Origin: Seleniivibrio woodruffii | Lineage (GTDB): Bacteria > Chrysiogenota > Deferribacteres > Deferribacterales > Geovibrionaceae | Reading direction: 5' to 3' | DNA: 64,000 bases | NCBI RefSeq assembly: GCF_004339245.1 | Contig: NZ_SMGG01000006.1 | Location: 186,001 to 250,000 of the forward strand | Shown here: one piece after another, positions 135-41,102 of the stretch | Numbering within the stretch: the first letter of the stretch is position 1 | Layout of the letters: every line of letters begins with the position of its first letter | Program-made: the position numbers and the translations under genes | Notes under the pieces: model-generated | Told to the model about the DNA's origin: nothing | The model's database searches: none | What the model saw: the letters and a program-made list of their open reading frames with translations, nothing else

Positions 135-1156
135 CTCAGGTTGCTCCGCACAGGTTCGCCGTTCATAGGCATCGGCTGAGCCTGCATTGGCTGTGTCTGT
201 GGTCTGCCTGCCTGCTGAGGCATCGGCTGTGTGCCGTCCGGAGGCAGAGGAGCGTTGGCCGGGGGAAGAGGGACTATGGGATTTCCGGCAGGGTCGACAC
301 CCTCCGGCATCGGCTCGCCCACCACACCCTGATTCATATTGTCGCCCGCAAGTATCGCTGCCACCTCTTCGTGGCCGAAACGAAATGCATAGTCCTGTGC
401 CGTCTGGCCGGAATTGTCTCTGGCGGTTTTGTCCGCACCAAGACTGAGCAGAGAGAGAACTATCTTTGAATAACCGTTGGCGGAGGCTTCCATGAGAGCC
501 GTGCGCCCCAGTCTGTCTTTTGCGTTCACATTGGCCTTATTGCGCATCAGCAGGTCGGCCAGATCGTCGTGGCCGTACTTAGCCGCTATGATAAGCGGTG
601 TCTGGCCTTCGTTATTGGGTTTGTTAGGGTTAGCACCCCTTTCCAGCAGTATCTCGGCAAGTTTGATCCTCTGCTGTCTTGCGGCATGTGCTGTGGGGGT
701 CATTCCGTCGCTGTCGGCTATATTCGGGTTCGCTCCGCCCACCAGAAGGGTCTTCACCGCCGAATCCCTGCCCATGTAAACGGCGAGGTTAAGAGCTGTG
801 AAACCCAGGCTGTCCTGCCTGTTCAGATCCTCTCCGCTGGTTATGAGCTTTCTGAGCTTCGATTCGTCAGCTTTCAGAACCGCATCCATAACCTGCGTCC
901 GGCTCTCGGCCAGCCCCAGCGGCATAGGTTCGGAGTTCATGACATCAGGTGTCGGAGGCAGAATGTCCCCTGTATCCTGTACAGGCTCAGATTCGGCATC
1001 GGCCTCACCCTTCTTTTTTTCGGGGTTCCAGTCGGGATATATTGCTTTGATTATTTTATTTGTAACCAGAGGGCGTTCCAGCGTTGAATCGACTATCAGA
1101 AGAACTATCAAAACAGCAAGCAGAACTGCTGAGACGCTCAGAATTTTATTGTTCAT
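131..1156 (-). CDS. membrane-anchored ankyrin-repeat protein
   Basis: 341 residues from the ATG at 1156, chosen because GGAG lies five bases upstream; an in-frame ATG at 1192 has no ribosome site. A single hydrophobic segment at residues 5-22 (ILSVSAVLLAVLIVLLIVD) anchors the protein, followed by a short acidic linker. Five or so ankyrin repeats follow at roughly 90-265, recognisable as G.TAL..A...G....V..LL..GA. blocks (GFTALNLAVYMG, GMTPTAHAA, GQTPLIIAAKYG, GRTALMEASANG). The C-terminal 80 residues are Pro/Gln/Met-rich and probably disordered (PMPQQAG, QPMQAQPMPM). Ankyrin stacks bind protein partners; the partner is unknown. The N-in signal anchor suggests a periplasmic repeat domain. It is coupled to mpg downstream, but no functional link is apparent. 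Confidence 0.8.
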   Translation of the reverse strand: MNNKILSVSAVLLAVLIVLLIVDSTLERPLVTNKIIKAIYPDWNPEKKKGEADAESEPVQDTGDILPPTPDVMNSEPMPLGLAESRTQVMDAVLKADESKLRKLITSGEDLNRQDSLGFTALNLAVYMGRDSAVKTLLVGGANPNIADSDGMTPTAHAARQQRIKLAEILLERGANPNKPNNEGQTPLIIAAKYGHDDLADLLMRNKANVNAKDRLGRTALMEASANGYSKIVLSLLSLGADKTARDNSGQTAQDYAFRFGHEEVAAILAGDNMNQGVVGEPMPEGVDPAGNPIVPLPPANAPLPPDGTQPMPQQAGRPQTQPMQAQPMPMNGEPVRSNLR

Positions 1157-1225
1157 TGATGCTCCATGATTGTGATTATAATGATTAGACATTGATGAGG
1201 CAATAAAAATCAAAGTTATTCGGAG

Positions 1226-24605: not shown

Positions 24606-25082
24606 TTATTTCAATTTAGTGGCGATATATTCCAGCTGTGTCGGGGAAAGGGGGCCTTCGACCCTTTCGAACAGTTGTCCGTCCGGTTTGAAGATGAAAG
24701 AGGCCGGAATGGTGTATATGTTCATTTCCATGCCGAGGTTTGAATCCGCATGGAAAACGGGATAGGTTATCTTGTGTTCGTCCACAAACTTCTGGGCATC
24801 CTCAAGGGTTTTGTCGACAGATATGCCCACGATAACAAAGTCATCGCCTTTATATTTTTCGTATGCCTCAATAAAATCCGGAGTCTCCTTTATGCAGGGG
24901 GGGCACCATGAGCCGAAAAAGTTAACGATTATCGCTTTGCCCGCATACTGCTTCTTAAGCTCGTCCACAAATCCCTTTGAAACGGTGGTGACCTTGTTTG
25001 CGGAACCTTCCGATTCCTTTTTGCTGCCGAAACAGCCGGACATGAGAACAACGGTGAGAAGCAGAAGTATCAGTTTTTTCAT
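24606..25082 (-). CDS. TlpA-like thioredoxin-fold lipoprotein
   Basis: 158 residues from the ATG at 25082 (GGAGG five bases upstream). A lipoprotein signal ends at LMSGC with Cys17 as lipid site. The thioredoxin-fold domain has WCPPC (FFGSWCPPCIKE), GISVDKTLEDAQKFV and PASFIFKPDG with the cis-Pro. It is a membrane-tethered periplasmic disulfide reductase of the TlpA/ResA type, used in cytochrome c or copper-site maturation. The CsoR-family gene is divergent 140 bases away and may share control. Confidence 0.88.
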   Translation of the reverse strand: MKKLILLLLTVVLMSGCFGSKKESEGSANKVTTVSKGFVDELKKQYAGKAIIVNFFGSWCPPCIKETPDFIEAYEKYKGDDFVIVGISVDKTLEDAQKFVDEHKITYPVFHADSNLGMEMNIYTIPASFIFKPDGQLFERVEGPLSPTQLEYIATKLK

Positions 25083-25187
25083 TTCATCCTCCAGATGCGC
25101 AGGCATGGCCTTTTCCCCATGCCTCTACGAATATGCATTTTGCGATATATTCCGTCAAGGATTTTCGCTGTACCTTTGTTTTTTTGA

Positions 25188-25217
25188 TTGACATATCCTA
25201 TCCTACAGGATAGGATA
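25188..25217 (+). promoter_or_regulatory. promoter with nested palindromic operator of the CsoR-family gene
   Basis: TTGACA (25188-25193), 17-base spacer, TAGGAT (25211-25216). The spacer and -10 are covered by a palindrome with 10-base perfect arms, TATCCTATCC (25194-25203) and GGATAGGATA (25208-25217), around TACA. A bound repressor would block RNA polymerase directly. Confidence 0.7.
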
Positions 25218-25222
25218 CTCGC

Positions 25223-25459
25223 ATGGAACAGAAGGCTAACGAAGAAATTGTTAAAAGACTTCAAAGAGCTAACGGTCATTTGTCTAAAGTTATCGAAATG
25301 ATAATGGAGGGGGATGCCGATATTGACGTTGCCCAGCAGATGCAGGCCGTATCAAAGGCGGTTATAAACGCCAAGAACCTCTACATCCGCAACAGCATCG
25401 ATTCAAGACTGGAAGGTTCCGCAGCCAGAGATCTGGCTGAGCTTTCTAAATTTTTATAA
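25223..25459 (+). CDS. CsoR/RcnR/FrmR-family repressor lacking the usual ligands
   Basis: 78 residues, all-helical, aligning with FrmR and CsoR: RLQRANGHLSKVIEMI (helix 1, DNA contact), GDADIDVAQQMQAVSKAV, and a third helix to RNSIDSRL. Family members sense copper, nickel, formaldehyde or sulfide through a Cys in helix 2 and a His in helix 2/3. Here the Cys position is Ile (DADI versus DAEC in FrmR) and the His position is not His; there is no Cys at all. The inducer is therefore unclear. It is preceded by a strong palindrome, so self-repression is likely. The ATG lies six bases after the -10 box, with only AGGA inside the operator as a possible ribosome site. Confidence 0.8.
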   Translation: MEQKANEEIVKRLQRANGHLSKVIEMIMEGDADIDVAQQMQAVSKAVINAKNLYIRNSIDSRLEGSAARDLAELSKFL

Positions 25460-25522: not shown

Positions 25523-25553
25523 AAAAAAAGCGGGCTTTCACACCCGCTTTTTT
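25523..25553. terminator. bidirectional terminator between csoR-like gene and lipoprotein gene
   Basis: AAAAAAAGCGGG and CCCGCTTTTTT arms around an eight-base loop; it has a U-tract on both strands. A second hairpin without U-tract lies at about 25472-25499 (GTCTGTGGA/TCCACAGAC). Confidence 0.85.
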
Positions 25554-37008: not shown

Positions 37009-37192
37009 CTCCGCACCGTCTTTTGAATTGCTGTTTAGAATCAAGCAATTCAAGGCTCACAAACTTCAGGATGAAGTTCGTGAAGCATTTACATTCTGCA
37101 TTTAAGCAGAATGTAAATGCGAAACGTGAGCGCAGGAAGGCTTTGCCGACCGGAGCGTTAGCGTCATTTTTCCATGGATGGAAAAAATGACG
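37009..37192. other. multi-hairpin element, potentially a branched RNA or DNA structure
   Basis: Four nested or successive perfect stems: TTGAATTGCT/AGCAATTCAA (37023-37053); GCTCAC (37055) with GTGAGC (37126) enclosing AACTTC/GAAGTT (37062-37078) and a 15-base stem (37085-37099 with 37106-37120). Outside, CTCCG (37009) can pair with CGGAG (37151). A further stem CGTCATTTTTCCAT/ATGGAAAAAATGACG (37162-37192) ends at the stop codon of the glutamate synthase gene. No tRNA, T-loop or known riboswitch pattern is visible. Confidence 0.55.
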
Positions 37193-39919
37193 TTATTCAT
37201 TTGACTCGGCGGTGAGGCTCGAAATGGGGATTATCTTGCAAAACCCGCTGAACACACTGTTAGGCTCGGCTTCATACTTCGCCCTGAACGCTTTCAGGCT
37301 TTCGTTGTATTCATTGTCGATATCAACGCCGCTGAACGCATCCAGAAATGCATCTATCTGGTTTTTCAGAAACTCTATGTCTGCCGTTGTGAGATAATCT
37401 ATCTTGCGGACACCCACGCCCAGCTGTTCTTCGGCGACGTTTCCACGAATATAGGCCGCTCCGGCGGTCATGCCGCTGCATACATAATAGCCGATGGGGT
37501 TCTCACGGTTCACTATGTTCAGGATAACGCCGATTCCGCCCTGCGCATACTCCATGAAATAGTCGCCCATCCCCTTTTCGTGTCCGAGGCCGTAAACCGC
37601 AACGGGAGGTTTTCTGTTGTGGAGTTTCTGTTCGAAATCCTTCAGGAAATCCTGCCATGTTGTGCGTGCACGTCTGGCTCTGCGTTTCTGATATCTGCGG
37701 GTCAGCTCGCTGAGAATAACGTTTTTATCCTCGCCGATAAACTTTTCCGCATCGGTCTTCTTCCATTCTTCGGGCAGTCCGGCCTTCATAAGCAGAAGGT
37801 TCCGCACGCCGCCGCTCTTTGCCACCCGGAAGGTTCCGCTGATGGCATATGCGGCGAAAAGGTCACTGACATCTCCGGCAATGTTTATCTCGGACGGGTT
37901 TGAAGTGTTGGCAACGCCCACCTGAGCGTTTGCGGGCACTGTTGTTATTGTGCTGTGATTGGGGATAACGTTAATCTTTACGTCACGCACAAATGCAAAC
38001 GAGTGGTTGCCCACCAGACCACGGACGGTTATCTCATCACATCTGATGCCCGTGCCTATGGTTCTCTGTCCCATGACGTTGTCGAGGAAGAATTTTTTAA
38101 CGCCTCTGTCAGCCGCCTCCTTCATCAGGTGGTTCAGCTGCATGGACTCTATCTGGTCGAAGCCTATGTCGATTTTAAGGCTGTCGCCTTCTATATTTTT
38201 CAGTATTTTCTCAAACCGCTCAGTATTTTCTGCGTATGATACCTCACGGGATTTGAATATCTTTTTGGTGCGCTCCCTCACATCCACATGGGGAACCTGC
38301 TTGGGTGTTTCGCCCCTGCCGAAGGTCTCGAAAAGGAGCGGGTCGCTTCCGTGATATCTGAAACGGCGTGCGCCTATGACATCCGCATGGTTCGACATGC
38401 CCAGTCCTGCCGCCATTCCCTCCATATCCTCGTGGAAGCTCTTTATCATCCGCACGATGCTGTCGCTGGCTGTTGCGGGGTCTATGCGGTGGCCGTATTT
38501 TCTGGAGGTGATGCCCCATGCGCACTGGCCTGTGTGGCATCTCTGGCAGAGGGTACAGCCCAGAACGTGGAGCGTACGCATGCCAAGCCCCACAAAGTCC
38601 GCACCCGCAAGCATGGCGAGCATTGCGCCGAATGAATCCATAATGCCGCCTTCGGCTATGATGGAAACATGCTCACGAAGGCCTTCCGAGCGGAGTGCGA
38701 GGTCTGCCTTGTGAGTGAGATAGATTATATTGAGGCCTCTGTTCTGGAGATCCACAAGGTGCGCCGCACCTGTGGAGCCGTCCCCGGCCTTGATTGTGAT
38801 ATAGTCGAAACCTGCCTTTGCTATGGCAACGCATATTTCGGGGAAGTTCCATGCCGTGCCGTAAACGTCGGCACCGATGAGTTTTTTATCGCCCAGAAGC
38901 GCACGGAGGGATTCCACACGCATGGGCAGTTCTTCGATGGAATATTGAAGATGCTGGGGGTTCGGAGAACTTAAATGTCTGAGTGCTTCCACACAGCGCA
39001 GAAGTGCTATCTCATAGTCGTTCTTCTTGTCCTGCAGTCTGCCGCCCTTACCCTTTTTGGCATCCTGACCGTATTTCATGGAAAACCCTGCGAACTTGTC
39101 CAACTCAACCCAGGGGCCGAAACCGCCGGAACCGAACTGGAGAATACAGTGGCTGGCGGCTGGCATCATATCGGGGTGGATGTAGCCTTCGCCTGTGAAA
39201 AAGGGTCTGCCGAGTTTGACGCAGGCCATCATTCTGGCGAGCACCGCCTCATGGCTGTTCGAGCCGTAAGACTGGTGAACGTCCATTATTGGAACATCGC
39301 ATTTGAAGCGTGCAAGTCTTTTGCCCAGCTCCATGCTGCGCATCTGTCCTGCGTATTCGTTCATGTGGTCACGGGTGGGCGAAAGTATCTCTGCGGCGTC
39401 TATCATCCAGTCGGTGTAGAGCTTTGACTTGCCCCTGCCCAGATGTGCGGATGAAATGCTGGATTTCCCCGCCGCACGGCTGATTATGTTGTTTATCTCT
39501 TCGTGGCCTGTCAGGGTCACGCCTATGTCGTGGTAGTCAGGGTTCTCATAAACCTTGATTGCCCGCTGGGGACACATTTTCACGCATCTTTTGCAGTTGC
39601 AGCACTCATCGGGGTTGATCCAGAGTATCTTTTCGATGAGCCGCACACTGTCCGCATCCTCCGAACGGACACGGTTGCCCTCCGCATCGTAGCAGACCTC
39701 CTCCATGGTGAAAACACCTGTGGCTGAGGCGGGGTTTGCGAGGTTGTGGGTGCAGGATTCAACGCAGGTTGAGCAATGGACGCACCCCCTGCCCGGCTCT
39801 TCAATCTCGTCCGTGACCTTCACCCAGTATTTTGCGCCCTGAGCAAAAATGCCCCTTGATTTCGGCTCGGTATATTTTATCTGTCTTTTAAAGACAACGT
39901 CTTTTCTTATCTCAGTCAT
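37193..39919 (-). CDS. gltB: glutamate synthase FMN/GXGXG subunit with ferredoxin domain
   Basis: 908 residues from the ATG at 39919. The N-terminal ~120 residues hold two 4Fe-4S motifs (CVHCSTCVESCTHN and CCNCKRCVKMCPQ). The middle is the TIM-barrel FMN domain with IKAGDGSTGAAHL, GGIMDSFGAMLAMLAGAD and GCTLCQRCHTGQCAWGI. The C-terminal third is the GXGXG beta-helix (VYGLGHEKGMGDYF). This is the archaeal-type layout, where amidotransferase and synthase parts are separate proteins. It converts 2-oxoglutarate plus ammonia to glutamate. Overlaps the amidotransferase gene by 8 bases. Confidence 0.88.
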   Translation of the reverse strand: MTEIRKDVVFKRQIKYTEPKSRGIFAQGAKYWVKVTDEIEEPGRGCVHCSTCVESCTHNLANPASATGVFTMEEVCYDAEGNRVRSEDADSVRLIEKILWINPDECCNCKRCVKMCPQRAIKVYENPDYHDIGVTLTGHEEINNIISRAAGKSSISSAHLGRGKSKLYTDWMIDAAEILSPTRDHMNEYAGQMRSMELGKRLARFKCDVPIMDVHQSYGSNSHEAVLARMMACVKLGRPFFTGEGYIHPDMMPAASHCILQFGSGGFGPWVELDKFAGFSMKYGQDAKKGKGGRLQDKKNDYEIALLRCVEALRHLSSPNPQHLQYSIEELPMRVESLRALLGDKKLIGADVYGTAWNFPEICVAIAKAGFDYITIKAGDGSTGAAHLVDLQNRGLNIIYLTHKADLALRSEGLREHVSIIAEGGIMDSFGAMLAMLAGADFVGLGMRTLHVLGCTLCQRCHTGQCAWGITSRKYGHRIDPATASDSIVRMIKSFHEDMEGMAAGLGMSNHADVIGARRFRYHGSDPLLFETFGRGETPKQVPHVDVRERTKKIFKSREVSYAENTERFEKILKNIEGDSLKIDIGFDQIESMQLNHLMKEAADRGVKKFFLDNVMGQRTIGTGIRCDEITVRGLVGNHSFAFVRDVKINVIPNHSTITTVPANAQVGVANTSNPSEINIAGDVSDLFAAYAISGTFRVAKSGGVRNLLLMKAGLPEEWKKTDAEKFIGEDKNVILSELTRRYQKRRARRARTTWQDFLKDFEQKLHNRKPPVAVYGLGHEKGMGDYFMEYAQGGIGVILNIVNRENPIGYYVCSGMTAGAAYIRGNVAEEQLGVGVRKIDYLTTADIEFLKNQIDAFLDAFSGVDIDNEYNESLKAFRAKYEAEPNSVFSGFCKIIPISSLTAESNE

Positions 39920-41102
39920 TTTTCTTCCACCCATAGTCCAGTTTGGAAACAGCTTTGTTCTTCACGGTGAAGCCAACTATCCGTCCCGCTTCGGGGTCGA
40001 ACATCTTAAGCTCCTCGTGCATGAAGTATGCGGCGGAGATAACCGCCCTCTGTTCCGAGCCCAGCAGGGCAATCTTGTCGTTCACACCGACGGAGAACGA
40101 CCTCAGGTGGTCTCTGTCGGTGAAGCCCACCAGAACATCATCCACAAGGGTGATAGCCGTTGCGGGGCCGCTCATCTTCATGCGGAAAAGGAGCGGATCG
40201 GACATCAGCTTCGCATACTGCTCCTGTTTCTCCTGAGCCATCAGACGGACTTCCTGCGGGAATTTGCGGCAGATTATCCACTCTATCTCCTCAAGGCTGT
40301 AGCCGCTTCTCAGCAGATATTCCACCGCAAGGAATATCGCCTCGGAGTCTGTGCCCACGGTGAGCATTATCTCAAGCTGTTCCAGAGCCCTTGCGTTTGC
40401 CATGTCGCTTGAGAGGTGGCCGTTGTGCACACCCGCAACCTCGCCCAGCGAAATGGGCTGAGGCCCCCACCAGAGTCCGCGGCCCTGACTTGTCGGCCAG
40501 CGGAGGTGGATGAGGCAGGCGTCATAGAACCTGTCCTCATACTGGGGCATGTCGTATATTGCGATTGTGTCCACAAGCTCGAAAGCGGTCAGAAAAGTTC
40601 CGTTGTATCTGGAACTTGAAAATATGCGTGCGTCATCCATGAACTGCTTATTGAATCTGGCAACGACAGTTTTGATATAAAGGCTCTCGTCCTTTATCTT
40701 CTCACGGAACATCATCTCCTCCGGCGAAGGGGGAATGATGCTGTAATGCATTATGACGGGCAGGTCATATTCGTAATAATATTTTCTCTGCACCATGTCC
40801 TTTTTCTCAAGGATCCGAAGCCCCATGGTGGTGAGCACCTGTTCCAGTTCGGCTATTTTGTCGGAACTGCGGAACATGATGTGAAAATTGAAGAAATTCG
40901 TATCTTTATAAATACTTTTCAGGGTGACTCCGGCTCCGGTTCTCCCTCTGTACTGGAGGCATCTGGCAGCCTTGAGCACTGCGCTGAGCTTGAAATCTCC
41001 CGCAACGGCAAGAAGTCCGCATGCGCCCTTGGGCAGTCCCAGTTCCCCGCCGGAGAAATCGTTCACGCTCAGATTTCGGGAGGTTGAATATTGATCAGTC
41101 AT
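39912..41102 (-). CDS. glutamate synthase glutaminase subunit
   Basis: 396 residues, class II glutamine amidotransferase (Ntn) domain. KGACGLLAV contains the catalytic Cys at about 28, so about 27 residues must be removed by maturation. LRWPTSQG, VAGVHNGHLSS and VGTDSEAIFLAV are the other family marks. It releases ammonia from glutamine for the FMN subunit. Overlaps both neighbours by 8 bases. Confidence 0.88.
   Translation of the reverse strand: MTDQYSTSRNLSVNDFSGGELGLPKGACGLLAVAGDFKLSAVLKAARCLQYRGRTGAGVTLKSIYKDTNFFNFHIMFRSSDKIAELEQVLTTMGLRILEKKDMVQRKYYYEYDLPVIMHYSIIPPSPEEMMFREKIKDESLYIKTVVARFNKQFMDDARIFSSSRYNGTFLTAFELVDTIAIYDMPQYEDRFYDACLIHLRWPTSQGRGLWWGPQPISLGEVAGVHNGHLSSDMANARALEQLEIMLTVGTDSEAIFLAVEYLLRSGYSLEEIEWIICRKFPQEVRLMAQEKQEQYAKLMSDPLLFRMKMSGPATAITLVDDVLVGFTDRDHLRSFSVGVNDKIALLGSEQRAVISAAYFMHEELKMFDPEAGRIVGFTVKNKAVSKLDYGWKKND

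Follow-up and report, generated by a model that had tools for sequence, protein, structure and literature searches.

A cysteine-less putative DUF156 repressor of the NreA/NcrB clade and its conserved predicted operator in Seleniivibrio

What does a repressor of the CsoR/RcnR family do once the residues with which its relatives sense their effectors have gone? This question is raised by a small gene of Seleniivibrio woodruffii (25223–25459, plus strand), located in a 64,000-nucleotide stretch of contig NZ_SMGG01000006.1 (hereafter the window), which encodes a 78-residue DUF156 protein with one histidine and no cysteine. An initial annotation had pointed to a cysteine-less DUF156 protein behind a palindrome, with a divergent gene for a TlpA-like lipoprotein, and the open reading frame (ORF), its PF02583 match and the inverted repeat are all present. 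Its description of a CsoR-family repressor without metal ligands is supported here and can be sharpened to the NreA/NcrB clade. We favour, with slightly better than even confidence, the explanation that an NreA-clade repressor has here lost its nickel pocket and acts as an effector-blind autorepressor on its own, presumably leaderless, promoter.

Family and clade

The PF02583 profile matches the protein with 48 bits (E = 1.7e-12) in the window and 48.2 bits in a genome search, against a cut-off of 22.8. An AlphaFold single-chain model (pLDDT 87.8) contains helices at residues 2–29, 33–62 and 66–75, and FrmR, CstR, CsoR and InrS chains make up eight of its best nine structural matches (Z 8.0–8.8), with unrelated helical bundles within 1 of these. 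CsoR-family chains head the fold list at Z 7.3–8.8, again with helical bundles at most 1 Z behind, and the best Foldseek match to the model had an E-value of 0.11, with nothing at 0.001 or better. Because helical bundles tie with the CsoR family within 1 Z, the fold match strengthens the sequence-based assignment only slightly.

A tree of 76 DUF156 sequences, computed from only 86 columns after removal of the ligand columns, places the genus inside a 41-member NreA/NcrB/MreA clade together with plasmid NcrB and NreA-like proteins, with support of 95/96; the bootstrap had not settled, many forks are open, and so is the branching order inside the clade. The CsoR-type paralogue of the same genome (L001, G000:C4) falls outside. 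By its sequence, the window protein is a member of the NreA/NcrB clade.

The ligand-less gene is present in all five genomes of the Seleniivibrio-like genus, with 81–83% identity to the window protein in three of them and 61–64% in the genome G001, and in 5 of 12 genomes of the family. A search across the phylum covered 50 genomes, of which 27 had DUF156 matches (34 of 35 matches read), and found the ligand-less group in no other genus. Among mobile elements, relatives came from one phage record (44.8% identity), from viral contigs (five, all with C38, H63 and C67) and from 528 plasmid records, every one below 60% identity. With phage and plasmid relatives this distant and viral-contig relatives that retain the ligands, we rejected a mobile origin of exactly this gene.

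Sensor pocket and DNA-contact residues

For Mesorhizobium NreA, Jensen and Griffitts reported that alanine at C38, H63 or C67 leads to super-repression, with a partial effect at H66, and that alanine at R17, R20, Q44 or K91 leads to mostly or fully constitutive expression (PMC12724321). At the positions of the nickel ligands C38, H63 and C67, the window protein carries D33, S58 and R62; in the genomes G000, G002, G003, G004 and G001, in this order, the three columns read D/E/E/E/G, S/S/S/S/Q and R/R/R/R/A. The alignment of the window protein with the NreA clade is gap-free between R12 and R62, so that Asp33 sits at the sensor cysteine, correcting the isoleucine that had been placed there. R17, R20, Q44 and K91 are retained as R12, R15, Q39 and K76; in the last column the C-terminal lysine aligns, with two of four genus sequences gapped there by hmmalign.

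The sensing sites described for the family are likewise missing. The formaldehyde site of FrmR comprises Pro2 and Cys35, and the window protein has Glu2 and no cysteine. CstR proteins are defined by two cysteines for persulfide, neither of which the window protein can offer. At the start of helix 2, Asp33 takes the place of the DUF156 effector cysteine (Cys35 in FrmR), a residue said to be "conserved in all DUF156 proteins" in the abstract of PMC5016687, whose text refers to all characterized members. Sensing of metals, aldehydes or persulfide through known ligands is therefore ruled out by the residues of the window protein.

To place this loss among relatives, we used 77 distinct DUF156 ORFs gathered by similarity from parts of two phyla, plasmid samples and viral contigs, a collection that is no census. 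C38, H63 and C67 occur together in 71 of them, and the six exceptions are four distinct sequences of the genus (five genomes, two merged by the duplicate filter), G005/L060 and G261/L162. The initial annotation had suggested a check of whether cysteine-less DUF156 proteins share the operator; in this set, two further lineages lack the sensor cysteine and one of them has an NreA-like site. L060 (G005:C1:2474061–2474306, minus strand), a second cysteine-less DUF156 protein, comes from a sister genus; it has glutamate at C38 and histidine at C67 and groups apart from the Seleniivibrio-like proteins, on a very long branch. Its gene adjoins a His-rich ORF that, by reading, resembles a cation diffusion facilitator of the DmeF type, and is preceded by a G6 tract between TATAGTATA and TATACTATA arms. 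L162 (G261:C149, ORF 831–1199, plus strand) represents another DUF156 lineage that lacks the sensor cysteine; it has isoleucine instead and lysine at C67, retains H63, and carries the NreA-like site TAACC-N9-GGATA immediately before its likely start codon.

In four genomes of the genus, the loop that once held the sensor site varies at 7 of its 9 positions, versus 1 of 43 in the two helices (Fisher p = 2e-6, with borders set post hoc); adding G001 weakens the contrast to 8 of 9 versus 11 of 43. Loop drift next to a fixed DNA-binding face suggests that sensing has been lost in the genus rather than rebuilt. G001 has one cysteine two residues before the old cysteine site and one histidine at H66, and a remnant metal site is possible in that protein. 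Among the four closer genomes, dN is 0.01–0.13 and dS, computable for three of six pairs, is 1.5–1.7, giving dN/dS of 0.03–0.08 for these three pairs only. An effector-blind autorepressor would agree both with the low dN/dS and with the variability of the ex-sensor loop.

The main rival to a super-repressor is a pocket that has been re-lined and still responds to a non-thiol effector such as a hard metal, an oxyanion or pH. Such a pocket would use the acid at the old cysteine site, the arginine at old C67 and Asn6 at the old N-terminal histidine site. In its favour, a regulator with no other target shows low dN/dS, and Asn6 is kept in all five genomes; acid and arginine moreover occur together in four of them and are both absent (G, A) in G001, but this pairing rests on a single difference between lineages. 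The loop with the old cysteine site is also the most variable part of the protein, at the 7 of 9 sites counted in four genomes, and the operon contains no transporter or enzyme that would reveal a substrate. We consider a re-lined pocket conceivable but unlikely. Of the two options raised in the initial annotation, a constitutive repressor is better supported, because NreA with alanine at its ligands represses persistently (PMC12724321) and because the ex-sensor loop is variable where the helices hardly change; a new effector is also possible.

The same data bear on whether the protein still functions. It could be a remnant in decay, unable to bind DNA, or be locked in the released form by a D33–R62 salt bridge mimicking the metal, as might be expected from the loss of three interior ligands and of the partner exporter, and from the short gene product (78 residues, 82 in G001, versus 85–101 in 14 relatives outside the genus). 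Yet all four mapped DNA-contact residues are kept, the helices are nearly invariant in four genomes with low dN/dS, and the operator described below matches its consensus at 23 or 24 of 24 bases in five genomes, and we find a remnant or locked form improbable.

Operator and promoter

A promoter scan placed a −35 box, TTGACA, at 25188–25193 (plus strand; TTGACA in four of five genus genomes, TTGACT in one) and, after a spacer of 17, a −10 box, TAGGAT, at 25211–25216 (plus strand), which has the TAGNAT form of the NreA promoter (PMC12724321). The scan by itself is weak evidence, with 2 promoters found versus 1.0 expected in shuffles. Directly after TTGACA lies a predicted 24-bp palindromic operator, TATCC TATCC TACA GGATA GGATA (25194–25217, strandless), a perfect inverted repeat with 11-bp arms 2 nt apart (25194–25204 and 25207–25217), rather than the 10-base arms first reported. 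It does cover the spacer and the −10 box, as noted earlier, though not exactly, since it extends one base further. The start codon (25223–25225, plus strand) begins 7 nt past the −10 box, and this spacing predicts transcription from the A of the ATG and hence a leaderless mRNA. A search of the window for RNA elements gave no Rfam match at gathering scores.

Comparable repeats were rare in randomized sequence. Copies within three mismatches were absent from 100 dinucleotide shuffles of the window, and 11-bp arms with a gap of at most 4 appeared in 2 of 20,000 first-order Markov versions of the 116-bp intergenic stretch. The initial annotation had named absence of the operator upstream of orthologues as grounds for discarding its reading; the palindrome is found upstream of the gene in all five genus genomes, with diverged flanks. 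Three other genomes carry TATCCTATCCTATAGGATAGGATA, from which the window and G001 each differ by one base. In G001, a GGAG is present and the leader is 13 nt longer, so that the leaderless layout is found in four of the five genomes.

The arrangement follows that of NreA. For NreA, an operator of the form TATCC-N9-GGATA has been described between −35 and −10, and 5′-RACE in Agrobacterium placed the transcription start of a Mesorhizobium nreA promoter fusion at the A of the ATG (PMC12724321). In the window, TATCC-N9-GGATA is present between the −35 and −10 boxes in two copies, with the ATG near +1: register A (25194–25212, strandless) begins at −29 from the ATG, and register B (25199–25217, strandless), shifted by 5 bp, begins at −24 and overlaps the −10 box. 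A start of the first 19-mer at −29 is shared with relatives from Sulfitobacter, Roseinatronobacter, Shinella, Citrobacter and Methylobacterium. Across the clade, an upstream half-site match of at least 8/10 was found for 43 of 43 genes and a full 10/10 match for 29 of them. The corresponding numbers are 612 and 1 among 8600 Markov versions, and 10 and 0 among 38 DUF156 genes from outside the clade. The site starts 23–31 nt before the start codon chosen by our script in 36 of the 43.

Of 38 clade operators outside the genus, 20 have a second register (score at least 7/10) at an offset of +5 or −5, and none has one at any of the remaining offsets up to 9; many of the 38 belong to close relatives and so represent fewer independent lineages. 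We therefore no longer regard the doubled operator as peculiar to the genus, and the site of TTHA1953 is likewise doubled, with a 4-nt centre (PMC10318464). An Oligoflexia relative (L012; 41–42% identity, cysteine kept) shows the same 5-5-4-5-5 plan, TAACC TATCC CCCT TGATA GGTTA. Downstream of it lies a transporter-like ORF with a His-rich tail at its end. For CsoR of Streptomyces lividans, two tetramers per operator have been reported (PMC3902906). We infer that two tetramers could sit on opposite faces of the doubled operator, and a second register at exactly 5 bp in NreA-clade operators more generally suggests the idea of two tetramers sharing one site.

At the level of sequence, clade, ligand loss, retained DNA-contact residues, operator/promoter layout and conservation are thus established, and the simplest account would be a natural super-repressor that closes its own promoter. 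The protein would form a CsoR-type tetramer and occupy the 24-bp palindrome that lies between the −35 and −10 boxes of its own promoter. Two tetramers would probably be bound there, on the TATCC-N9-GGATA registers that are half a turn apart, and the bound repressor would keep RNA polymerase off this presumably leaderless promoter. Without C38, H63 and C67, no ligand would be expected to release it, and it would behave like the C38A, H63A and C67A super-repressor mutants of Mesorhizobium NreA, its level set by negative feedback alone. We read the protein as a natural effector-blind autorepressor because alanine at any one of these three positions super-represses NreA (PMC12724321).

Neighbouring genes, other targets and known systems

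The divergent gene (24606–25082, minus strand) encodes a TlpA/ResA-like thioredoxin lipoprotein, starting with MKKLI after GGAGG, with its longest frame reaching 25106. The regulator might serve this gene and thereby be tied to envelope redox, as the initial annotation proposed for periplasmic redox: tlpA is the divergent neighbour in all five genus genomes, and the CsoR-family protein TTHA1953 controls sox genes including that of the thioredoxin SoxW (PMC10318464). However, tlpA has a conserved promoter of its own outside the operator (25130–25158, minus strand; TTGACG at 25158–25153, 17 nt, CATATT at 25135–25130), with the operator 35 bp behind it, and the regulator has no thiol for redox sensing. 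Moreover, tlpA is present in 12 of 12 family genomes versus 5 of 12 for the regulator, and in 7 genomes of three other genera it follows an ORF reading like an NAD-dependent epimerase, a name taken from the ORF alone. The separate promoter, and the occurrence of tlpA in sister genera that lack the regulator, make the redox link weak, and we give this explanation little credence.

At this locus the regulator's operon contains no metal exporter, and the gene that follows points towards it and gave no match to a transporter. Between these two genes, a perfect hairpin with 11-bp arms and A and T runs (25524–25553), unlisted by a consensus terminator scan, is perhaps a two-way terminator. The longest perfect inverted repeat of the window at a gap of at most 8 (37085–37120; 15-bp arms, GCATTTACATTCTGC) lies just downstream of a 913-residue ORF reading like glutamate synthase (37193–39934, minus strand), and is possibly a terminator or a binding site.

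Searches of the genome and the genus found no second conserved operator. With the 18-bp core at up to three mismatches, one other site recurred in four of five genomes; it lies within a coding frame, which we take to be that of ribosomal protein S13, and was rejected as a second target. A 16-base half-site pattern at up to three mismatches occurs at 12 or more places in the genome, the operator's own places lying outside those listed, versus 8 for its mirror control. Exact TATCC-N9-GGATA occurs at five places, namely the two operator registers, two sites inside long ORFs and one intergenic site (L083, G000:C3:807505–807523). The last is a palindrome situated some 31 nt upstream of the start codon of a histidine kinase gene without a visible ribosome-binding site; it is absent upstream of four histidine-kinase orthologues and was likewise rejected. 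Spacings N4–N14 together give at least 82 places in the genome, 7.5 per spacing, with no enrichment of N9. Mirror controls are much lower, at 0 for N9 and 20 for N4–N14 in the window genome, and across five genomes the N9 control gives 0–1 versus 5–13 for the true pattern, the N9 sites of the four other genomes having been read in part. Codon usage may account for this excess; real operator-like sites may also contribute to it. These searches yielded no conserved target besides the gene itself, and that selection should keep a fixed repressor of no evident benefit counts against our account.

One speculative possibility, to which we assign very little probability, is that a mobile nickel sensor has become, throughout the genus, a repressor that needs no effector and is kept by selection as a standing silencer of NreA-type promoters, its own and those of incoming nre/ncr operons. 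If true, such a silencer would shut incoming nickel-resistance operons bearing TATCC-N9-GGATA. More generally, a conserved lineage with its interior ligands gone and its operator and DNA surface kept is a natural counter-example to a universal helix-2 cysteine. If a super-repressor, the protein would be a natural version of the laboratory mutants, and the ligand-less lineage would allow the poorly understood DNA binding of the family to be studied without the sensor. The family is known and its ligand-less form appears to be new: a literature search, covering mostly papers outside subscription, showed no report of a naturally ligand-less CsoR/RcnR protein among the papers listed.

Known systems resemble the window gene to differing degrees. 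The paralogue L001 shares only the DUF156 family; unlike the window protein it keeps C38, H63 and C67, belongs to a separate branch, and has a different palindrome (ATACCCCTATAGGGGTAT) and a GGAGG ribosome-binding site. TTHA1953, the Thermus CsoR-family Sox repressor, likewise prefers a doubled inverted repeat that has a 4-nt centre and lacks a G/C tract, whereas two cysteines matter for its DNA binding, its repeats are TAC/GTA and its targets are sox genes (PMC10318464). NcrB of nickel-resistance plasmids (L113) and five NreA-like proteins are 40–47% identical to the window protein, and NcrB/NreA-like genes of Rhodobacterales and rhizobia share its operator family, at a similar distance to the ATG; in contrast, their proteins keep C38, H63 and C67, and the genes lie near MFS, CDF, RcnA-type, HupE or other transporter genes (13 annotated records). 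Mesorhizobium NreA shares TATCC-N9-GGATA between −35 and −10, the TAGNAT −10 box, the leaderless layout and R17, R20, Q44 and K91, and the clade is shared via NcrB/NreA-like relatives, the Mesorhizobium sequence itself being outside our alignment; G-poor variants of its operator remain functional (PMC12724321). Unlike it, the window protein lacks C38, H63, H66, C67 and the N-terminal histidine cluster, and its operon has no nreX/nreY-like exporter genes, a doubled operator and a perfect TTGACA −35 box.
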